A stretch of DNA of 9,964 nt from an uncultured Chitinophagaceae bacterium. GTDB lineage: Bacteria > Bacteroidota > Bacteroidia > Chitinophagales > Chitinophagaceae. The notes under the pieces are model-generated. The model made no database searches. It saw only the letters and a list, made by a program, of their open reading frames with translations, and was not told where the DNA came from. Made by a program: the position numbers and the translations under genes. Below, in pieces: positions 158 to 9,964 of this stretch. The stretch spans positions 1 through 9,964 of the forward strand of contig CAMPGT010000146.1 in NCBI GenBank assembly GCA_946885665.1, read 5' to 3'. Positions within the stretch are counted from its first letter, which is position 1. The number at the start of each line of letters is the position of its first letter.

Positions 158-1273
158 TCAGATTATCGTACTCTTACTCAGCGACATATTCAACATGTTC
201 ACATCCGAAGGGATCCTGTTTTCAATAATATCCCTCACCAGGTCGCCGATGGTTGATGTACTGTAACTGTTTACCGGATCAATATCCCTGCTCACAAATC
301 CGTGCGCCAATGTCCACTCCACTGCCGATCTTACCAATGCTGCCTCTTCCTTCATATTAAAATGATCCAGCAACATCGCCGCCGATAATATCGAACCCAG
401 CGGGTTCGCAATATCCTTTCCGGCAGCCTGCGGGTATGATCCATGTATCGGCTCGAACAATGCCGAATGATTACCGACAGATGCCGATGGCAACAACCCC
501 AGCGAACCACTGATAACACTTGCCTCGTCACTGATAATATCTCCAAACATGTTTTCCGTGAGCACCACATCAAACTGCCGCGGGTTGATGATCAACTGCA
601 TCGCCGCATTGTCAACAAACATGTAATCAACAGTCACATCACTGTACCGGGCGGCTATATCCTGCACCACCTTTCTCCATAATCTCGATGTTTCCAGCAC
701 ATTCGCCTTATCCACCAGCGTCAGCTTCCTGCTTCTGCTTTGCGCATAAGCAAAGGCGATATGCGCCACCCGTTCAATTTCCTCCCTGCTGTAGGTACAT
801 TCGTCGAGCGCCCACGTTTTTTCTTCATTCACCTCTTTCTTTCCAAAATATATTCCGCCGGTAAGCTCCCGGATAATAATAAAATTGACATCTTCCAACT
901 GCTTGTTCTTCAATGGCGACAGGTAATGCAGAGAAGGATAAGAGCTGACGGGGCGTATGTTCGCAAACAATCCCAAAGTTTTTCTCAGTTTCAGCAACCC
1001 CTGCTCCGGCCGCACTTTCGCCTCGGGATCGTTGTCGTATTTCGGGTGACCGATTGCGCCGAACAGGATCGCATCGCTTTCGAGGCACGCCCGAATGGTT
1101 TCATCAGGTAAAGGATTTCCGGTTTTATCTATCGCGTCGGCACCCATGAGGCAATAATCGTAATGAAACTGGTGACCGAACTGCTGCGCTATGGCATCTA
1201 AAATTTTTACAGACTGCTGTGTTACCTCAGGGCCAATCCCATCTCCCGGTATTACAGCGATGTTCTTCTGCAT
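158..1273 (-). CDS. leuB: 3-isopropylmalate dehydrogenase
   Basis: This cytosolic enzyme oxidises and decarboxylates (2R,3S)-3-isopropylmalate to 2-ketoisocaproate with NAD+, the third step of leucine synthesis. The 371-residue length is normal for the family. The N-terminus has the dinucleotide-fold start VIPGDGIGPEV (7-17). Substrate arginines fit Arg97 and Arg107 (RKTLGLFANIRP) and Arg135. The catalytic pair fits Tyr142 (GGIYFGKK) and Lys189 (LVDKANVL). Metal-binding aspartates fit Asp221, Asp245 and Asp249 (ENMFGDIISDE). The NAD-binding loop reads HGSYPQAAGKDIANP, with Gln282 where the Thermus and E. coli enzymes carry an Asp (HGSAPD / GGSAPD). I recall this as usual in Bacteroidota. The gene is last in the operon, 9 bp after the leuD stop. 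The ATG at 1271-1273 gives the expected family N-terminus. Confidence 0.98.
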   Translation of the reverse strand: MQKNIAVIPGDGIGPEVTQQSVKILDAIAQQFGHQFHYDYCLMGADAIDKTGNPLPDETIRACLESDAILFGAIGHPKYDNDPEAKVRPEQGLLKLRKTLGLFANIRPVSSYPSLHYLSPLKNKQLEDVNFIIIRELTGGIYFGKKEVNEEKTWALDECTYSREEIERVAHIAFAYAQSRSRKLTLVDKANVLETSRLWRKVVQDIAARYSDVTVDYMFVDNAAMQLIINPRQFDVVLTENMFGDIISDEASVISGSLGLLPSASVGNHSALFEPIHGSYPQAAGKDIANPLGSILSAAMLLDHFNMKEEAALVRSAVEWTLAHGFVSRDIDPVNSYSTSTIGDLVRDIIENRIPSDVNMLNMSLSKSTII

Positions 1274-1282
1274 GATATTTGG

Positions 1283-1870
1283 TTATTGTTGATGTGCTTC
1301 TTCATATTTCTGAATGTCACCTTTTATGCTCAACAGGAAATCGATGTCATCATAACCATTCAGCAAGCATGTTTTTTTGTATTCACTGATGTCAAAATGC
1401 TCGCTTTTTCCCGTCCTGTCGATTGTTATTGTTTGTTCTTTCAGATTGATCGTTAATGTTGATTCGCTGCCTTCACGAAATATTTCCTCCAAAAACTCAT
1501 CCGACACCTGCACCGGCAGTACCCCGTTGTTCAATGCGTTGTTCTTAAAAATATCCGCAAAAAAGCTGGACACAACCGCACGAAATCCATAATCGAGCAG
1601 CGACCATGCCGCATGTTCCCTTGAAGAGCCGCAACCAAAATTTTTACCCGCCACCAAAATATCTCCTTTAAACTGCGGCTGGTTCAGTGCGAAATCTTTT
1701 TTCGGCTGTGCTTCATCGTTATTTACATATCGCCAGTCGCGAAACAGGTTTTTTCCAAACCCTTCCTTTGTGGTCGCTTTCAAAAAGCGCGCGGGTATGA
1801 TCTGGTCCGTATCTATATTCTCAATAGCCATCGGAACGAATGTCGAAGTCAATATGGTGAATGCTTTCAT
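1283..1870 (-). CDS. leuD: 3-isopropylmalate dehydratase, small subunit
   Basis: This is the swivel-domain subunit of the LeuCD isomerase, which converts 2-isopropylmalate to 3-isopropylmalate through isopropylmaleate. At 195 residues it has the usual length for a bacterial LeuD. Visible family motifs are [13 protein letters not shown] (18-30), the segment [15 protein letters not shown] (73-87), whose GSSREHA contacts the substrate, and NNGVLPV (114-120). Its ATG (1868-1870) directly abuts the leuC TAA (1871-1873) with no gap, which suggests translational coupling and equal dosage of the two subunits. No Shine-Dalgarno sequence stands out, as is common in Bacteroidota. Confidence 0.98.
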
Positions 1871-3280
1871 TTATGCTTGTTTTGTCAGTTCCCGCACATC
1901 TGTTACCACCCCTGTTATCGCAGACGCCGCAGCCGTGAGCGGGCTCGCCAGCAACGTGCGCGCACCGGCGCCCTGCCTGCCTTCGAAGTTCCTGTTTGAA
2001 GTGGAGATGCAATACTCTCCTGCAGGTATCTTGTCTTCATTCATACCCAGGCAGGCGCTGCATCCTGGCTGCCTGATCCGGAAACCGGCAGCTTCAAATA
2101 TTTTATCGAGTCCTTCTTCCCTCACCTGTGCGGCCACCTGCTGTGAACCGGGTACGATCATCACGTCTACATTGTCGGACTTTTTCCTTCCTTTTATAAT
2201 CGACGCCACCAGCCGCAGATCTTCGATCCTCGAATTGGTACAACTGCCGATGAAAATATGCTGAACGGGCATGCCCAGCAACTGCCTGCCCGGTTGAAGC
2301 CCCATGTAATCGAGCGCCTTCTTAATGTTCCTTCTTTCATTTTCATCGGGAATGGAATCGGTTTCGGGTATTGAACCTTTAACCGGTATTCCCAGGCCAG
2401 GGTTGGTGCCGTAGGTGATCATCGGTTCGATGTCGCCCGCGTTGATATACATCTCCCTGTCGAATGTTGCATCCGCATCCGAATGCAACGCTTTCCATTC
2501 AGCAATCTTCCTGTCCCATTCTTCACCTTTCGGTGCGTACAATCTACCCTTGATGTAGTTGAACGTGGTTTCGTCGGGGGCAATCAATCCACCCCTCGCT
2601 CCCATTTCAATGCTCATGTTGCAAATGGTCATTCTCGCTTCCATGCTCAGGTTGCGGATGGCCGAGCCTGCATACTCCACAAAATATCCCGTTGCGCCAC
2701 TGGCGGAAATCCGGGAGATGATGTAGAGGATAATATCTTTCGATACAACACCATCGTTGAGGTTGCCCTCGATGTTGATGCGCATCTGCTTCGGTTTGCT
2801 TTGCAGCAGGCACTGGCTCGCAAATACCATTTCGACTTCGCTTGTGCCGATGCCGAAGGCAATCGACCCAAATGCGCCGTGCGTCGAAGTATGACTGTCG
2901 CCGCACACGATCGTCATGCCGGGTTGTGTAATGCCGAGTTCGGGACCGATCACGTGAACGATTCCCTGGAAGGGATGCCCGAGTCCGAAGAGTTCAATAT
3001 TGTGCCGCTTGCAGTTCTCTACCAGCTTGCTCACCTGGTTACGCGAAAGTTCATCGCGGATTGGCAGGTGCTGGTTGATGGTGGGCACGTTGTGATCGGC
3101 AGTGGCCACCACCTGCTTTGGCCTGAATAGCGGCACGCCCCGGTTCTCGATGCCTTTGAAGGCCTGGGGGCTCGTTACTTCATGAATAAAGTGTTTGTCT
3201 ATGTACAGCACCGAAGGACCATTGGGGATGGTTTTTACGATGTGCCTGTTCCATATTTTATCGAATAATGTGTTAGGCAT
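1871..3280 (-). CDS. leuC: 3-isopropylmalate dehydratase, large subunit
   Basis: This aconitase-superfamily subunit carries the [4Fe-4S] cluster of the LeuCD isomerase. At 469 residues it has the usual bacterial LeuC length. The cluster ligands fit Cys347 (IGSCTNSR, 344-351) and Cys407 plus Cys410 ([10 protein letters not shown]). Other family landmarks are VTSPQAF (35-41), ATADHNVPT (59-67), [13 protein letters not shown] (126-138) and the [10 protein letters not shown] stretch (428-437). It starts 21 bp after the leuA stop. The leader just before the ATG is A-rich on the coding strand (AAAAAAACAAAAA), a typical Bacteroidota translation-initiation context. It forms a unit with leuD, whose start abuts its stop. 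Confidence 0.98.
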
Positions 3281-3301
3281 TTTTTGTTTTTTTACACTGC
3301 A

Positions 3302-4462
3302 TCATACAGCTACCGACTTATAGCCCTTCGCCATTTTATGCAGATCTTCTTCTACCACTTCTTTCTTCTGATCGGCGATCTTTAGAAACTGGTCGTACAA
3401 AACGTCTATGTCGTTCCTGTCATAATTATAACCAAGCTTCGACAAGCGGTGTGCCAATGCACTGCGGCCGCTTCGTGCTGTCAGCACAATCTTCGAAAGT
3501 TCGGCGCCCACTTCTTCGGGGTTGATGATCTCGTAGTTGATGGCATCTTTGAGGAACCCGTCCTGGTGGATGCCCGAAGAATGGGAGAACGCATTGGCGC
3601 CCACAATGGCTTTGTTCGGCTGTACCGGCATCCTCATGGTATCACTCACGATCCTGCTCATGGGGTTGAGCATTTTTGTGTTGATACTGGTATAAAATCC
3701 CATGCTTTGATGTTGCCTGATGACCATCACCACCTCTTCGAGCGAAGTGTTTCCGGCTCTTTCTCCGAGGCCGTTGATAGTGCATTCGATTTGCCTGGCG
3801 CCATTCATAATGCCGGCAATGGAGTTGGCAGTTGCCAAGCCAAGGTCGTTGTGACAGTGACAGGAGATCACTGCTTTATCGATATTGGGAACGTTGTTTT
3901 TGAGATAGGCTATTTTTTCGCCGTACTGGTGCGGAAGGCAATACCCGGTTGTGTCGGGGATGTTGACCGTTGTGGCGCCGGCGGCAATTACCGCTTCAAC
4001 TACGCGCGCCAGATATTCATTATCGGCGCGGCCCGCATCTTCACCATAAAATTCTACATCGTCGGTGTAGTTGCGCGCCCACTTCACGCATTGGACGGCG
4101 CGTTGCAGTATTTCTTCGCGGGTTGAATTAAACTTTCCTTTAATGTGGAAATCGGATGTGCCGATACCGGTATGTATGCGTGGCCTTTTGGCATCTTTTA
4201 TTGCTTCGGCAGCCACCTCGATGTCTTTTTGCACCGCCCTGGTGAGGGCACAAACTGTGGCGTTCCTGATGACCCGTGAAATTTCCTGGACGGATTTGAA
4301 GTCGCCCGGGCTCGAAACAGGAAAGCCAGCTTCGAGTATGTCCACTCCCAGCTCTTCCAGCTTCAGTGCCAGTTCAAGTTTTTCGCCGGAGTTGAGTTTG
4401 CATCCGGGAACCTGTTCGCCATCACGGAGGGTAGTATCGAAGATGAAAATTTTTTCAGCCAT
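3302..4462 (-). CDS. leuA: 2-isopropylmalate synthase, short form without regulatory domain
   Basis: The enzyme condenses acetyl-CoA with 2-ketoisovalerate to 2-isopropylmalate, the committed step of leucine synthesis. A DRE-TIM barrel begins with [10 protein letters not shown] (8-17), where Arg13 and Asp14 fit the catalytic base-assisting and metal positions. The metal-binding HCHND is at 202-206 and [13 protein letters not shown] at 231-243. The linker subdomain has SGIHQDG (296-302, His299) and Tyr310 before NPEEVG, which fit the active-site His and Tyr of the Mycobacterium tuberculosis enzyme. The protein stops at 386 residues, whereas forms with the C-terminal leucine-binding dimer domain are about 500-570, so that domain is absent. 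Homocitrate synthase has a similar size, but the neighbouring leuCDB argue for LeuA. The gene heads the operon. Confidence 0.95.
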
Positions 4463-4616: not shown

Positions 4617-6194
4617 ATGCCCAACAAATCTACAGATGCCCTGTTCCAGCTTGTAAAATCTCTCGAAAAGGCCGAAAAACGCAATTTTAAGTTGTACATC
4701 AACAGGAATTCCGGAGGTGAGGATCTAAAAATCGTGCAGTTATTCGACGCGTTGGATAAAATGCAGGAGTATGATGAAACCCAGCTTCTGAAGAACAAGA
4801 GCATCAGAAAACAGCAACTCTCTAATATCAAATCCCATCTTTACCGTGAAATTCTTGCGAGTCTACGGATCATCAAATATACAGATAATATTGATTTGCA
4901 GCTTCATGAGCAGATGGCGTATGCCCGTATCCTCTACAATAAGGGCCTTTACCACCAGTCTCTCCGCATCCTCGACAAAATGAAGGAAACGGCCCGCGAC
5001 AACAACCAGTATTCGTACCTCATGCAGGCGCTTTTCTTCGAAAAGAAGATAGAGGCCCTTCACATTACGCGCAGTATGCAGGACCGTGCCGACACCCTCA
5101 CGGAGGAGGCCGAGGCAACCAATCAAAAACTGGTGAGGATCAGCCGGTTATCCAACCTTTCGCTGCAACTGTATAGCTGGTACATCCGCCACGGCAATAC
5201 CCGGAACGCAGAAGATGAAGCGGCGATCAAAACGTTTTTCGAGGACCATATGCCCCGCAGCGGCACCTCGGTTCAGGGCTTTTACGAGCGCCTCTACCTG
5301 TACCAATCGTATTGCTGGTACACCTTTATCCGGCAGGACTGGCTGAAGTATTACCGGTACACCAATAAGTGGGTAGAGCTGTTTCGCAGTTATCCCGATA
5401 TGATCCCCATCGAAACGGCCCACTACATCAAGGGTATGCACAACCTCCTCAACGCGCATTTCGGGTTGAGGAACTATCCCAGGTTCAACCGAACACTGCG
5501 TGAGTTTGAGGATTTTTCGAAGTCGGAGCTGGTCGATCTCAATCCCAACAACCGTATTCAGACCTTTGTTTACCTGCACATCGCGCTCATCAATAAACAC
5601 TTCCTTGAGGGCACTTTTACCGAAGGACTAAAGCTGGTCGAATACATTAATGAAAAGCTTGATGAGTACCACCTGTATTTAGACCGCCACCGCGTGCTGG
5701 TGTTCCATTATAAGATCGCGTCCCTGTATTTTGGCAGTGGCGACTACGAGCAGGCGATCGACCACCTCAACCTGATCATCAACCGCAAGGTGGATCTGCG
5801 CACCGATTTGCAGTGCTATTCGCGGCTGCTGCACCTGATTGCGCATTATGAGCTGGGCAACTACCAGTTGGTGGAGTACCTGGCGAGATCGGTGTACCGG
5901 TTCATGGCGAAAATGGAGCACCTGAGCGGGGTAGAAGAAAAGATACTGGAGTTCCTGAGAAATTCTTTCAGGATCAGGAAATCGGAGTTGAAGGGTGCTT
6001 TCCGGACGCTGCTCGACGAGTTGAAGAAGTTGGAGAATAACCCGCTTGAAACGCGGGCGTTCAGTTATCTCGACATCGTGTCGTGGCTGGAGAGCAAGAT
6101 TTACGGCGTTCCTGTGCAGGAAGTGATCAGGAAGAAGTATTTAGAGAGGAAGGGAGCGCGGGAGACGGGAGAGCGGAAAGGCAAAGGGCAATAG
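4617..6194 (+). CDS. TPR-like helical-repeat protein of unknown function
   Basis: I do not recognise a named family. The 525-residue protein is almost wholly alpha-helical, rich in Tyr, Leu, Arg and Lys, with no signal peptide or membrane segment, so it is probably cytoplasmic. TPR-like helix pairs are visible at about 101-126 (AYARILYNKGLYHQSLRILD) and 363-389 (YKIASLYFGSGDYEQAIDHL), and similar spacing of aromatic and small residues between them suggests an alpha-solenoid scaffold for protein binding. The start ATG is preceded by an A/T-rich leader. It is divergent from leuA, but nothing in the sequence links it to leucine synthesis. The last 15 residues (511-525, basic, Gly/Arg/Lys/Glu) are encoded by purine-rich repeat DNA, and the TAG stop (6192-6194) lies within the heptamer array, so the tail is probably not part of the conserved fold. 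Confidence 0.88.
   Translation: MPNKSTDALFQLVKSLEKAEKRNFKLYINRNSGGEDLKIVQLFDALDKMQEYDETQLLKNKSIRKQQLSNIKSHLYREILASLRIIKYTDNIDLQLHEQMAYARILYNKGLYHQSLRILDKMKETARDNNQYSYLMQALFFEKKIEALHITRSMQDRADTLTEEAEATNQKLVRISRLSNLSLQLYSWYIRHGNTRNAEDEAAIKTFFEDHMPRSGTSVQGFYERLYLYQSYCWYTFIRQDWLKYYRYTNKWVELFRSYPDMIPIETAHYIKGMHNLLNAHFGLRNYPRFNRTLREFEDFSKSELVDLNPNNRIQTFVYLHIALINKHFLEGTFTEGLKLVEYINEKLDEYHLYLDRHRVLVFHYKIASLYFGSGDYEQAIDHLNLIINRKVDLRTDLQCYSRLLHLIAHYELGNYQLVEYLARSVYRFMAKMEHLSGVEEKILEFLRNSFRIRKSELKGAFRTLLDELKKLENNPLETRAFSYLDIVSWLESKIYGVPVQEVIRKKYLERKGARETGERKGKGQ
6152..6179 (+). repeat. Purine-rich GGGAG(A/C)(G)C repeat inside the 3' end of the TPR-like gene
   Basis: Three imperfect units, GGGAGCGC (6152-6159), GGGAGAC (6160-6166) and GGGAGAGC (6167-6174), followed by GGAAA, lead straight into the GGCAATA array. 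They encode part of the basic C-terminal tail. The base composition differs sharply from the upstream coding sequence, which suggests repeat DNA that has become coding. Confidence 0.6.
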
Positions 6195-6221
6195 GCAATG
6201 GGCAATAGGCAATAGGCAAAA
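6180..6221 (+). repeat. Six tandem GGCAATA-type heptamers
   Basis: Six units follow each other in perfect 7-bp register: GGCAAAG, GGCAATA, GGCAATG, GGCAATA, GGCAATA, GGCAAAA. The TPR-like gene enters the array and stops at TAG formed at the junction of units two and three. Arrays of degenerate heptamers recall the STRR heptamers described in cyanobacteria. Slippage by one unit would shift the frame of the gene end. Confidence 0.85.
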
Positions 6222-6261
6222 CATTGATGTGAGTTGTACTTTTAACTTTTAACTTAAAATC

Positions 6262-6294
6262 AAAAAGCCCTCTCATCTTTCAGAAAGGGCCTTT
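6262..6294. terminator. Probable bidirectional intrinsic terminator
   Basis: An 8-bp stem with one mismatch is formed by 6267-6274 (GCCCTCTC) and 6283-6290 (GAAAGGGC), with an 8-nt loop. On the minus strand the stem is followed by TTTTTGATTTT, a good U-rich tail; on the plus strand only by CTTTGCTT. It can serve the TPR-like gene, which ends about 70 bp before it, and transcripts arriving from the kinase gene about 300 bp away on the other strand. Confidence 0.65.
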
Positions 6295-6322
6295 GCTTAA
6301 AGGGTTTAGTCACGCCTGGGGC

Positions 6323-6350
6323 GGGTTTAGGGGTTAGGGTTCAGAGGTTA
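6323..6350 (+). repeat. Four tandem GGGGTTA-type heptamers
   Basis: GGGTTTA, GGGGTTA, GGGTTCA and GAGGTTA follow one another in exact 7-bp register. The motif looks telomere-like, but this is a bacterial intergenic repeat. It belongs to the same family as the units at 6435-6463. Confidence 0.75.
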
Positions 6351-6434
6351 GCAGGATGTAGGGAATAAGGGTCAATGGGCTCATTAATTTTTCATCTCGT
6401 AGTTCAGGGTAAGCGTTGCTTCCAAAAGGGTTTT

Positions 6435-6463
6435 GAGCTTAGGGGTTAAGAGCTCAGGGGTTA
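6435..6463 (+). repeat. Second GGGGTTA-type heptamer array
   Basis: The units are GAGCTTA (6435-6441), GGGGTTA (6442-6448), AGAGCTCA (6449-6456, one base longer) and GGGGTTA (6457-6463). Two GGGGTTA copies are exact and match one unit of the 6323-6350 array. The stretch between the two arrays (6351-6434) has no ORF or other structure that I can identify. Confidence 0.65.
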
Positions 6464-6591: not shown

Positions 6592-8394
6592 TTACGCGCG
6601 CCGCTCCATGATCAATGCTGCGATCTTATTGTGCAGGTCCTCCGGCCGGAAAGGCTTGTGTATATAATCAACAAAACCCTTCCTGATTAAATCGCTTTGC
6701 ATATTCTCATAAACGGCAGCAGTGAACGCCATGGCGGGCACTGTGTCGTTGAATCGCCTTATCTCCTTCAGCGCGGTGGGCCCATCCATTTCCGGCATCT
6801 CGAGGTCTATCAACATTAAGTCGTAATGATCTTTTTTGAATTTCTCCACTGCCTCTCTCCCGTTCGTCGCCTCTCCCACCTGTATGCCCCACTTATTCAT
6901 GAACCGCTTCGCGATGGTAAGGTTCACTTTGTTATCTTCTGCCAGCAACACTTTAACACCGTTGAGCGGCACGAGCTGCTGCGAATGATTTTCTTCCGCA
7001 TACAACCTGCTCTCCTGGTTTACTTTCAATTCTATGGTGAAAAAGAATTCACTGCCCTTGCCCTCCTGGCTCTTCAGCATCAGCTCGCTGTTGAACATGT
7101 TGATGAGGCGCTTGCTGATGGTGAGTCCCAACCCTGTGCCGCCAAATTTTCGCGTGGTATCTATATCTCCCTGCGAAAAGCTCCTGAAGATTTCGCGATG
7201 CTTATTTTCGGGTATGCCGATGCCGGTATCTTTCACCACGAATTGAACGGTGGCCCTTTCACTCGTAGAAAAAAGCTGCTTGGCAGTGAGACTGATACTG
7301 CCCCTGTCGGTGAACTTTATCGCGTTCGACAACAAGTTGCTCAGTACCTGGTTCAGCCGCGTTTCATCGGTGTACATTTCATTGTCGAGATGAATATCTA
7401 TCGCGGTATGAAATCTCAGCCCTTTCGCGTGCACCTGGCCCGAAAACTGGCTGATGATCCTGTTCAGGAACTGCATGATGTTGACGGGCCTTACTTCCAG
7501 TTCCAGCTTGCCGGCTTCTATTTTATGGTAGTCGAGAATGTCGTTGATCAGCACCATCATGTGGTCCGACGAATATTTCAGCACATCGAGATTAGGCTTT
7601 TGATGAGGCAGGTAATTTTCCTGCAGCAACAAATTCGACGCGCCGATGATACCATTGAGCGGCGTGCGCAATTCGTGACTCATGTTCGAAAGAAAGCGCG
7701 ACTTCGTATTTGCCGCCACTTCGGCTTTTTTCTTCGCTTTCAGCAATTCGAGCTCCGCCTTTTTCAGCGCGGCATTTTCCTTCAGTATCGCTTCTTCATT
7801 GTCTTTGTTCACTCGTAAAATTGCATAGGAAAACATGAGCGTAAGCGCCATCGACATCACCAGGTTGCCCGAATATATCCTGTGATATAACGCTTCCGGA
7901 ATGATCTGGAGCGTACCGTGCACAAGCGGACTGAAATTAAGACACACCAGCGCCGACACTACCGTTATTGAATAAACGATGATCCACGAATGAAAGCTTT
8001 TGCCAATGCTCACCACAAACGTGAGTACAAGAAAATAAGGGAAATAAAATAAATAGGCGCCCGCGTTCAATCCCTCAACATAACTGATAATGATGAGGTA
8101 AAGATTAAGGTTGACGACCGATATAATGCGGGCCACCTCCAGCTTTTTTCTTGAATTGAAATAATAGGCAAGAAGAAATAAATACGCGGAGGTGATATTA
8201 ATTAATGCACTGATGTAGAGGCTAATCAGAAAGTAGTTGATAACGGAAACGAAGTTGACCAGCAGCGCCAACACCACGAACTGGTTGAGGCGGATGATCT
8301 TCTTGACCTGCTCCTTTGAAGTTTCGTTACCGATGCCAGAATACAGGATATCCCGGTAAATTAACCACCCCAGATATACTATTTTCTGTTTCAT
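6592..8394 (-). CDS. Membrane-bound hybrid histidine kinase with C-terminal receiver domain
   Basis: This sensor kinase starts a phosphorelay. The N-terminal part holds about six hydrophobic segments (near 37-60, 62-79, 88-106, 113-131, 136-153 and 175-193) with almost no periplasmic domain, so the signal may be sensed in or at the membrane. A charged helix (about 195-230) leads to the HisKA box SNMSHELRTPLNG with His240 as phosphorylation site. The ATPase domain shows the N box (SNLLSNAIKF, Asn353 and Asn357), DTGIGI (389-394) and GGTGLGL (418-424). The receiver (about 479-596) has the acidic pair Glu486/Asp487, phospho-acceptor Asp530 in LIDLEMPEMDG, Thr558 and Lys580. No output domain follows, so phosphate should pass to an HPt protein. 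The gene diverges from an HPt gene only 59 bp away, the obvious partner. The stimulus cannot be read from the sequence. Confidence 0.95.
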   Translation of the reverse strand: MKQKIVYLGWLIYRDILYSGIGNETSKEQVKKIIRLNQFVVLALLVNFVSVINYFLISLYISALINITSAYLFLLAYYFNSRKKLEVARIISVVNLNLYLIIISYVEGLNAGAYLFYFPYFLVLTFVVSIGKSFHSWIIVYSITVVSALVCLNFSPLVHGTLQIIPEALYHRIYSGNLVMSMALTLMFSYAILRVNKDNEEAILKENAALKKAELELLKAKKKAEVAANTKSRFLSNMSHELRTPLNGIIGASNLLLQENYLPHQKPNLDVLKYSSDHMMVLINDILDYHKIEAGKLELEVRPVNIMQFLNRIISQFSGQVHAKGLRFHTAIDIHLDNEMYTDETRLNQVLSNLLSNAIKFTDRGSISLTAKQLFSTSERATVQFVVKDTGIGIPENKHREIFRSFSQGDIDTTRKFGGTGLGLTISKRLINMFNSELMLKSQEGKGSEFFFTIELKVNQESRLYAEENHSQQLVPLNGVKVLLAEDNKVNLTIAKRFMNKWGIQVGEATNGREAVEKFKKDHYDLMLIDLEMPEMDGPTALKEIRRFNDTVPAMAFTAAVYENMQSDLIRKGFVDYIHKPFRPEDLHNKIAALIMERRA

Positions 8395-8453: not shown

Positions 8454-8849
8454 ATGAACCGGACCAATGGTCATAAAAAGTTCAAATTCAACGAAAAAAT
8501 AGACGAGAACTGGCTCCACAGTCTCTATGAAGACGATTACGCGTACATCGCCGAAGTGTTCAACTCGGGCATAGAATCGTTCCGCGAGGACCTGCCGGCG
8601 CTTACCACCGCCTTTGAATCGTCCGACATCCAGGCTCTCAAAAGATCGACCCATAAACTGAAACCTGTTTTCGGCTATGCCGGCCTCCTCTTTCACCAGG
8701 AAATGATGGCACGTTTTGAGAACGCCTGCGCCAACACCAGCGACACCTCTAACCTCACCCTGCAATACATCGAACTGCTCGACCTGATCCGCGACGGTAA
8801 GAATATTTTAATGGAAGATTACAAACGGCTAACGGATTTTACCTCATGA
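8454..8849 (+). CDS. Free-standing histidine phosphotransfer (HPt) protein
   Basis: This small cytosolic protein of 131 residues is expected to shuttle phosphate from the receiver of a hybrid kinase to a response regulator. The HPt signature is THKLKPVFGYAGL (66-78), with His67 as the phosphorylatable residue and Lys68/Lys70 beside it. The rest is helical, as expected for a four-helix HPt bundle, and the length is typical. It has no kinase or receiver domain. Its TGA overlaps the ATG of the next gene by 4 bp (ATGA), so translation of the two is likely coupled. The neighbouring hybrid kinase and LytTR regulator supply the donor and acceptor. The start at 8454 leaves a short N-terminal basic extension before the domain. 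Confidence 0.9.
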   Translation: MNRTNGHKKFKFNEKIDENWLHSLYEDDYAYIAEVFNSGIESFREDLPALTTAFESSDIQALKRSTHKLKPVFGYAGLLFHQEMMARFENACANTSDTSNLTLQYIELLDLIRDGKNILMEDYKRLTDFTS

Positions 8850-9538
8850 AACTCGACTGCGTAATAATAGAGGATCTTAAAGTGGCCGCCGACTACCTGA
8901 TGCGTTGCTGTGAAAAAAGCGGCCGGCTGGAGGTAAAGGGACATTTTCCGGATGTTGCCAGGGCCCTTGAATTCCTCAACGAAAACACAGTTGATCTTTT
9001 GTTCCTCGACGTGGAGATGCCCGGCGCCACCGGTTTCGACCTGCTCGACAAGATCGCCTATAAGCCGAACGTAATACTCACCACATCAAAAGAAAAGTAC
9101 GCGTACAATGCGTTTGAATATCATGTGTCCGACTTTTTGAAGAAGCCGTTCACGTATAACCGCTTCATCGAAGCGCTGAATAAAGTGGAACAGGCAATGC
9201 AGCATAACGGTGCGGATGCAGAACAGGCCGACCATATTTTTATCAGGTCGGAAGGAAAATTAATTCGTGTGAATAATGATGACATCCTCTACATCGAAGC
9301 CGCCGACGATTATGTTTGGTTCATCACGGCGGGAAAGAAATATATCACGAAGAATACCATCAGGGGCCTCGAAGAAAAGCTGAACGGCGACCAGTTCATA
9401 AAAATTCATCGCAGTTATATCATCAACATCGCTAAAATTGAAGACATCCTTGAAAAAGAGGTGATTGTGAACGGCACAAACCTGCCATTGAGCAAAAATG
9501 CGCGTAGCGACGTGATGAAAAAAATGACCATCCTCTAA
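8846..9538 (+). CDS. LytTR-family response regulator
   Basis: This is a two-domain DNA-binding regulator of 230 residues, normal for the family. The receiver (about 3-118) has Glu9/Asp10 in the acidic pocket, phospho-acceptor Asp55 (LFLDVEMPG), Thr79 and Lys100 (LKKPF). The LytTR domain (about 130-228) shows the family pattern: IFIRSEGKLIRV, then DILYIEAADDYV, then FIKIHRSYIINIAKI (184-198). In LytTR proteins this beta-strand domain binds direct repeats about 21 bp apart, usually upstream of the regulated promoter. Its start overlaps the HPt stop by 4 bp. Family members in Bacteroidota are often paired with LytS-type kinases; here the neighbours point to a hybrid kinase/HPt relay instead. Direct repeats with a 21-bp period follow the gene immediately. 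Confidence 0.95.
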   Translation: MKLDCVIIEDLKVAADYLMRCCEKSGRLEVKGHFPDVARALEFLNENTVDLLFLDVEMPGATGFDLLDKIAYKPNVILTTSKEKYAYNAFEYHVSDFLKKPFTYNRFIEALNKVEQAMQHNGADAEQADHIFIRSEGKLIRVNNDDILYIEAADDYVWFITAGKKYITKNTIRGLEEKLNGDQFIKIHRSYIINIAKIEDILEKEVIVNGTNLPLSKNARSDVMKKMTIL

Positions 9539-9541
9539 CTT

Positions 9542-9599
9542 TCACCGACGATTTTCGCCCTCTCACCCCCGATTTTCCCTTCCTCACCGAATAAATTGG
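9542..9599 (+). promoter_or_regulatory. Three 21-bp-period direct repeats, candidate LytTR operator
   Basis: TCACC begins at 9542, 9563 and 9584, exactly 21 bp apart. Copies one and two share TCACC and CGATTTTC (about 15 of 21 positions); copies one and three share TCACCGA and then diverge. LytTR proteins bind paired short direct repeats about two helical turns apart, so the spacing fits. The third copy reaches the TTG at 9596-9598, a good position for activation. Binding by the neighbouring regulator is inference. Confidence 0.55.
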
Positions 9600-9634
9600 C
9601 ATAGACAAAAACTATTTTTCACTTTTGTATTCGG
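9596..9634 (+). promoter_or_regulatory. Bacteroidota-type promoter candidate
   Basis: TTG (9596-9598), a 21-bp spacer, then CACTTTTG (9620-9627), one mismatch from TAnnTTTG. Transcription would start near 9631-9634. This is the best promoter match that I see in the window, and it faces a region without an ORF. Confidence 0.5.
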
Positions 9635-9701
9635 ATGTGAGAGACACGAAGGGAAAACGGAAATAACACAACAGACGAACAGAAGAAACAACAAAAACGC
9701 T

Positions 9702-9718
9702 TAAACCCCTAAACCCTA
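9702..9718 (-). repeat. Inverted GGGGTTTA / GGGTTTA repeat units
   Basis: On the minus strand this reads GGGTTTA then GGGGTTTA, related to the heptamers at 6323-6350 but in the opposite orientation and about 3.4 kb away. It lies inside the putative small RNA. Confidence 0.4.
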
Positions 9719-9805
9719 TAATTGCTCTTTTAAAAAATGAAAAAGTACTGAAGGAACAGCACATTTTCATGATGTTTTGATTTATTTAGGATTTCGATTT
9801 CGGAT

Positions 9806-9835
9806 CCGGACCTCTTCGCGGGGTCCGGTTTTTTT
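9806..9835 (+). terminator. Strong intrinsic terminator
   Basis: CCGGACC (9806-9812) pairs perfectly with GGTCCGG (9822-9828). The stem can be extended by a T-G and a C-G pair to a TTCGC loop, and is followed by seven T residues (9829-9835). It is the clearest terminator in the window. It lies about 270 bp after the LytTR gene stop, further than a usual operon terminator, with a promoter candidate in between. Confidence 0.9.
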
Positions 9836-9875
9836 CAACTTTGGCTCGTTTTGATTCGTACCCATAAAAATCCAA

Positions 9876-9905
9876 TACTATCAGAAATAACCGGCTCTGA
9901 TTGTA
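9876..9905. other. Hairpin in the final non-coding stretch
   Basis: TAC-T-ATCAGA (9876-9885) and TCTGAT-T-GTA (9896-9905) form a 10-position stem with one T-T mismatch and a 10-nt loop. ACCAATT follows twice, at 9914-9920 and 9933-9939, 19 bp apart. No ORF is visible from 9836 to 9964. The role is unknown; it may belong to the control region of a gene beyond the window. Confidence 0.4.
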
Positions 9906-9964
9906 CCAAGAAAACCAATTCCCTTGAAAAGAACCAATTAATCTCCTCGAGAAGAACCCTAGAC

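Follow-up and report, generated by a model that had tools for sequence, protein, structure and literature searches.

A conserved triple box and promoter behind a LytTR phosphorelay gene of an uncultured Chitinophagaceae bacterium suggest a small-RNA output

The locus described here raises the question of whether a LytTR phosphorelay could act through a regulatory RNA, as had been proposed from the sequence alone for the repeats, promoter and terminator that follow its regulator gene. The window, that is, the whole stretch of DNA analysed, comprises 9,964 nucleotides. To our knowledge, how phosphorelays of Bacteroidota reach post-transcriptional control is an open question, and no LytTR-driven set of small RNAs in this phylum appeared in the open-access literature among the matches listed, most subscription-journal papers and bioRxiv preprints lying outside this scope.

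A hybrid histidine kinase is encoded on the minus strand at 6592..8394 (HisKA, HATPase_c and receiver domains; Pfam PF00512, PF02518, and PF00072), divergent from a plus-strand pair of genes for a stand-alone HPt phosphotransfer protein (8454..8849; PF01627) and a LytTR response regulator (8846..9538; PF00072 and PF04397). Pfam domains and gene order were those of a hybrid kinase/HPt relay feeding one response regulator, with phosphotransfer predicted, and the three proteins would constitute one phosphorelay. Protein searches scored the best seven candidates per genome, so that genome counts are lower bounds; of 394 genomes belonging to a single family, at least 48 carried the LytTR gene (E 1e-80), as did at least 3 of 395 genomes of a phylum sample (E 1e-60), similar proteins bearing the names Chitinophagaceae bacterium, Flavitalea sp., and Sphingobacteriales bacterium. 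Relatives at 70-79% (P0003-P0010) occur on metagenome contigs. A separate genome scan with the LytTR protein returned only a 27% relative, and the viral contigs searched gave no match. We read 50 relative loci (L004-L053), which together with the window make up 51 LytTR loci; three LytTR relatives at 27-37% (L001-L003), with no HPt or kinase relative there, were excluded from all counts. HPt preceded LytTR in all 50 relative loci and a kinase relative, in some cases weak (E up to 8e-5), divergently adjoined the pair in 48 of them by tblastn, being missed at L006 and L037 (contig end).

Behind the LytTR gene, TCACC repeats at an exact 21-bp period had been reported, and the starts at 9542, 9563, and 9584 were confirmed. 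The three putative LytTR-type boxes lie on the plus strand at 9542..9562 (box 1, beginning with TCACCGACG), 9563..9583 (box 2, TCACCCCCG) and 9584..9604 (box 3, TCACCGAATAAATTGG), the 21-bp register of boxes 1 and 2 being kept in relatives. Units 1 and 2 are identical at 15/21 positions, 1 and 3 at 12/21, and 2 and 3 at 10/21. The promoter TTG-N21-CACTTTTG had also been described with the right coordinates and spacing: its -33 TTG (9596-9598) falls within the third 21-nt unit, the spacer covers 9599-9619 (21 nt) and the -7 element, CACTTTTG in the window and CATCTTTG in most relatives, occupies 9620..9627 of the plus strand, 81 nt past the LytTR stop, a distance that was identical in several relatives. 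A sigma-70 promoter scan called no promoter at the box/-7 site. Part of this pattern could have arisen by chance or from simple intergenic sequence, as 21 of 500 dinucleotide shuffles of 9539-9964 contained a 5-mer in three evenly spaced copies (lags 15-39 considered), and 1 of 500 did so at lag 21. Judged from the window alone, the triplet was thus suggestive and only marginally or moderately beyond chance, and relatives had to decide whether the box pattern was real.

The comparison was made on a -7-anchored, ungapped set of 43 loci including the window, 30 of them non-redundant. Self-identity at lag 21 reached 0.396 in the 30 non-redundant loci (z 11.8) and, among lags 8-39, only lag 21 exceeded all 300 shuffles; in box 3, two columns had A in 30 of 30 (a conserved AA). 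The -7 position was set by hand in six loci (L023, L025, L032, L049, L052, and L053), and outside the set were L030 and L031 (one base short of the rule), L039 and L043 (wrong -7 assigned), and L040, L041, L047, and L050 (no -7 found). A 90-nt position model, built leaving out the scored locus and its close relatives, recognized the 21-bp boxes and the -7 element at a fixed distance in 44 of the 51 LytTR loci including the window, 0 of 200 shuffles being as good in each. The window scored 44.6 bits at 9538 vs. a shuffle maximum of 5.0, and the next best position on either of its strands reached -7.0. By this model the adjacent layout was missing in seven loci (L028, L039, L040, L041, L043, L047, and L050); six of these genomes had box sites elsewhere and G668 had none. 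Loss of the 21-bp period beside LytTR orthologues had been set as a refuting test; the period was kept, and the terminator, proposed for the same comparison, recurred in that a terminated unit followed the boxes in most of the relative loci. Given the lag-21 signal and the 44 loci, together with the counts of strict and relaxed promoter patterns against their controls reported below, an origin of the boxes by chance is hardly credible. Conserved spacing and terminated units support the reading of a LytTR-activated small RNA, in which the regulator would bind, a transcript would be made and the RNA would have a regulatory role.

The small RNA predicted in the window (RNA1) spans 9634..9836 of the plus strand, its start being deduced from the -7 element. 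A strong terminator about 200 bp on, with no ORF between, had been seen correctly: the intrinsic terminator at 9806..9835 (plus strand) consists of a 9-pair stem (9806-9828) followed by T7, and the longest plus-strand ORF (ATG/GTG/TTG) starting in 9634-9838 has 25 aa, begins at a TTG at 9777 and runs through the terminator. Its only matched relative was found at L007, the locus of the genome nearest to the window, where LytTR is 68-70% identical. From about 9694 on, RNA1 was homologous to L007 (local score 116 vs. a maximum of 31 in 500 shuffles), and the alignment contained 36 identical nucleotides, TTGATTTATTTAGGATTTCGATTTCGGATCCGGACC, at 9777..9812 of the plus strand, which include GGAUUUCGAUUUC. 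A hairpin, AUGAAAAAGUACUG/CAGCACAUUUUCAU, is predicted at 9737..9770 (plus strand), and a similar one was legible by eye in L007 from the two-sequence alignment. The folding stability of RNA1 was no more than expected (z -0.24). The suggested Rfam check of the 9634-9835 region was run, with no gathering-score match in the window and none in 11 relative loci.

Units behind the boxes in relatives fell into three classes, for which we coined the labels A, B, and C. Class A units contain GACGGTTATC and an 8-bp helix, UGAAAUCC/GGAUUUCA. A terminator comes next, with its stem ending about 170-245 nt past the -7 element (349 in L011). Across 16 sequences the helix was intact bar one cell, with both-sided changes at 2 of 8 pairs, and the terminator had both-sided changes at five pairs, besides broken cells. 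A covariance model built from 13 sequences matched at least 17 of 20 genomes, with one match each among the candidates scored (146 of several hundred to about 2000, counts being lower bounds); 11 of these 17 genomes had supplied model sequences and match by construction, and at least 6 of the other 9 matched as well. All but one of the 17 matches lay at most 400 bp behind LytTR, that of G413 being about 3 kb behind it. Class B units measure about 140-410 nt, L029 being longer according to the script, and carry 2-12 copies of a CAATCC-TTTGAAAAC-like unit spaced 15-79 nt apart. With a profile of this 16-nt unit trained on 9 RNAs and tested on 10, the counts in 9 of the 10 held-out RNAs were reached by at most 2 of 200 shuffles, the repeats in most test units having already been seen by eye; the profile was used in place of a plain repeat regex, whose results were mixed, with enrichment seen for some repeat-type units and not for others. 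The G content of class B was 10-17% (14 units), most of these 14 were about as structured as their shuffles (z -1.2 to 3.3), and the top enriched 6-mers in 17 repeat-type units were ATCCTT, AATCCT, TTGAAA, TGAAAA, and AAACCA. Class C units have a -7 element ending in TTTA and no repeats, with the stem end 133-182 nt after the -7 in 14 of 17. Class borders were not sharp, since the class A model weakly matched the repeat-type locus L033 (27.2 bits).

RNA1 was expected to be a class A or a repeat-type RNA, and it failed on both the covariance model and the repeat count. The model of class A, the commonest of the RNA classes, gave no plus-strand match in the window or in L007, the window containing only an antisense match of 12.9 bits (E 0.62), and the 16-nt repeat profile counted one site in RNA1, a number reached by 118 of 200 shuffles. 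Judged by its place and by partly shared letters (GGATTTC and the terminator), RNA1 appears to be a positional counterpart of class A rather than a proved member. Past the terminator, a second RNA-like stretch on the plus strand (9866..9958, cut by the window end), which the sequence-only reading did not include, showed homology to L007, scoring 75 vs. at most 34 for shuffles; a class B RNA may begin here, and the repeat enrichment of 9838-9964 was not significant (two sites, reached by 37 of 200 shuffles).

The occurrence of the same promoter before further RNA-like units was invisible from the window alone. A strict pattern had 21 matches in 17 of the 394 family genomes, with one match for the reversed control. 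The LytTR gene was present in all 17, of which 15 belong to the 48 genomes found at 1e-80, and G492 and G526 carry LytTR at 56 and 54% identity, respectively. Allowing at most three mismatches, 62 matches were obtained in 21 of 31 LytTR-bearing genomes (reversed control 1). With at most one mismatch in 26 genomes, the correct spacer gave 17 matches in 12 genomes vs. none with a spacer 2 nt shorter. We examined 42 distinct sites of the 62 matches (in L083-L123, some of them LytTR-adjacent); part of the other matches lie in loci read individually or next to LytTR. The third upstream box, which was outside the search pattern, read [TC]CG at exactly -21 in 34 of the 42 sites, and a terminator was called within 450 nt at 40 sites, vs. 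5 of 42 mononucleotide-shuffled ones, leaving two sites with no terminator called in that range. The last letter of the -7 element separated these sites, under thresholds chosen after the table had been inspected: where it was G, 24 of 25 sites preceded G-poor repeat RNAs whose count was reached by no more than 2 of 100 shuffles, and where it was A, 0 of 17 sites did, the count being reached by over 5 of 100 shuffles at each of them. Three of the 25 G sites (L085, L092, and L100) either overlap training units or are very similar to them, and three others (L083, L086, and L087) come from the held-out set.

At 8 of the 42 sites (L083, L085, L090, L091, L098, one of L103, L117, and L119), which could be something other than small-RNA units, an ORF of at least 60 aa (ATG/GTG/TTG) had already begun where the called terminator ends. 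Such ORFs would suit a unit that serves a downstream gene as 5' leader or attenuator instead of a free small RNA, as would the second RNA-like stretch past the terminator in the window and L007, for which no box set of its own was seen and where read-through could matter. Against this stand the terminators within 450 nt at 40 sites, with regions further downstream viewed by eye only, and the finding that in several genomes (L068-L075; L068 and L070 read) boxes and a promoter of its own precede the second unit after LytTR; we regard the leader as improbable, and a free small RNA as the better description of the unit. Ten of the 31 LytTR-bearing genomes had no match at up to three mismatches. 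One of them is G466, the closest genome to the window, and it likewise lacked a class A match among the 146 candidates scored of several hundred to about 2000. The third box of G466 deviates from the search pattern, so that further units of the window's type could be missed, and in the window's own lineage such units can at most be surmised. The eight ORF-bearing sites and the lack of sites in G466 slightly lowered our confidence in the overall explanation given below.

Several arrangements were observed among these loci. RNA-like units stand behind a -7 element CATCTTTA in L084, L096, L097, L098, L104, L108-L110, L113, L116, and L117 (CATTTTTA in L117); part of these units share words such as GATAGGTAACGATAG, ATCCGTACACTATG, and GAGGTTGTT, and sometimes two occur in tandem. 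L021, L093, and L103 (G413:C36) belong to a single LytTR locus in which box-driven units follow one another, the class A match at about 3 kb being one of them. In L044 (G767:C36), the RNA unit behind LytTR occurs twice, around an N run, and is followed by another box-driven unit of the repeat type.

VirR of Clostridium perfringens is a LytTR-type regulator. According to the accessible part of the source, it binds imperfect direct repeats (VirR boxes) before three small-RNA genes, VR-RNA, VirT, and VirU (PMC4877802); direct repeats before small-RNA genes, in our case predicted ones, are common to both systems, whereas VirR uses two boxes instead of three, belongs to another phylum and has its boxes also before the protein genes pfoA and ccp. 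In Staphylococcus, the LytTR regulator AgrA acts through direct repeats on RNAIII, a regulatory RNA from its own operon region whose promoter has a suboptimal long spacer (PMC4227749, partial text). On its side, the window has a LytTR regulator in the same system, direct repeats about 21 bp apart upstream of or over the -33 element and a predicted terminated unit without a long ORF; unlike this unit, RNAIII is divergent from the agr operon, encodes delta-haemolysin, depends on two repeats and is a single RNA. As far as the available text goes, CoxC is a LytTR protein with established binding to a set of three direct repeats at two-turn distances (18-21 bp), and the LytTR operator of RcoM1 has three direct repeats with 12-13 bp gaps at the promoter (PMC11347149). 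The triple arrangement at two-turn intervals at a promoter is shared with the window, but CoxC and RcoM1 control cox protein genes and CoxC represses.

In the explanation that we favour, phosphorylated LytTR would bind the three direct repeats two helical turns apart and, with the last box overlapping the weak -33 element, the bound protein would activate the Bacteroidota-type promoter, whose output would be a terminated small RNA of about 200 nt. The boxes might instead serve another LytTR paralogue or mediate repression. Paralogues exist (four more at 33-39% in G492) and could bind, and CoxC represses via three repeats over the -35 element (PMC11347149, in the part available). Nevertheless, box sets track this LytTR gene, which is present in 17 of 17 strict-site genomes and directly followed by boxes in 44 of 51 loci, and the weak -33 element would fit activation, so both variants seem unlikely to us beside activation by the adjacent LytTR protein. 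We conclude that small RNAs are very probably the output of this LytTR relay.

Further RNA-like units, either short and repeat-free or longer and G-poor with CAATCC-TTTGAAAAC-like repeats, are preceded by this operator-promoter in many relatives. The class B RNAs hold one unit in several degenerate copies and are little structured, and we consider sequestration of an RNA-binding protein their most likely function, in which they would act as sponges. CsrA (PF02599) was found in 0 of 12 related genomes, the control detecting it in 3 of 14 named genomes, and RRM proteins occurred in 12 of 12 (3 to 12 matches per genome), which makes an RRM protein the candidate partner; through its sequestration the relay would act after transcription. 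RbpB of Bacteroides is an RRM protein. It is the RNA-binding partner of the FopS/GibS small RNAs, a multicopy family (PMC11697453, partial text). The likeness to the units described here lies in a multicopy Bacteroidota family with an RNA-binding protein partner, in our case a candidate one; the difference is that FopS/GibS RNAs have about 65-70 nt and pairing seeds, with a LytTR operator not mentioned in the accessible text.

Since the FopS RNAs, multicopy and RbpB-bound, pair near start codons (PMC11697453, accessible part), RNA1 and the repeat RNAs could also act on mRNAs by pairing, seeded by the AUCC repeats or by the conserved GGAUUUC, instead of being protein sponges. The 36 identical nucleotides with GGAUUUCGAUUUC in the window and L007 could be such a kept seed, and it is a guess that the GGAUUUC stretch of RNA1 pairs with mRNAs or with the repeat RNAs. 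Two to 12 degenerate sites per RNA, counted in the ten held-out units, and a mostly shuffle-like structure fit repeated protein contacts better than a single seed; pairing in place of protein titration is a serious possibility, albeit one that we would sooner doubt than accept, and sequestration by the repeat RNAs is retained as the preferred function.

The closest functional parallel is Gac/Rsm, in which, as described in the available part of the source, the GacS-GacA phosphorelay switches on RsmY and RsmZ, small RNAs whose protein-binding motifs recur along the molecule and which titrate a translational regulator (PMC5812540). Both lead from a relay and its response regulator to repeat-motif small RNAs, relay and output being predicted ones in our case. 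They differ in that LytTR and box triplets are employed here, and in the CAATCC-TTTGAAAAC-like repeats as opposed to the GGA in stem-loops of Gac/Rsm; the proposed relay would work like Gac/Rsm and is not classed as a member because CsrA was not found in the 12 related genomes. A Bacteroidota switch equivalent to Gac/Rsm, with a LytTR relay targeting mostly small RNAs, multicopy repeat RNAs titrating an RRM-class protein and a structured RNA beside the regulator, perhaps pairing through GGAUUUC with the repeats, is put forward tentatively, at somewhat short of an even chance. The less specific explanation, a phosphorelay acting on a triple box to produce a small RNA of about 200 nt, with further units in relatives and an action after transcription, is in our judgement probable as a whole. 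In sequence terms it is carried by gene order, boxes, fixed promoter geometry, terminators, repeats, and co-occurrence with the LytTR gene, from which we infer binding, activation, transcripts, sponge function, and a target of RNA1. With its exact promoter geometry and repeat motif, the compact module of kinase, HPt, LytTR, triple box, and RNA makes the RNAs, their protein partner and the regulon testable together.

The remainder of the window holds other features. A minus-strand row at 158-4462 comprises leuB-, leuD-, and leuC-like genes and an HMGL/homocitrate-synthase-like (leuA-like) gene, the names being read from Pfam domains, and behind leuB, at 1-116, lies a GC-rich tandem repeat of 37-bp period (CCCCCGCCAGCGGGGGATA...). 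The plus-strand gene at 4617-6194 encodes a 525-aa protein with a weak TPR match only. Between this gene and that of the kinase, at 6179-6463, there are tandem arrays of 7, 14, and 15 bp (AGGCAAT/GGGCAAT and GGGGTTA). Visual inspection also showed arrays of short units after the LytTR gene of some relatives (L008, L019, and L047).
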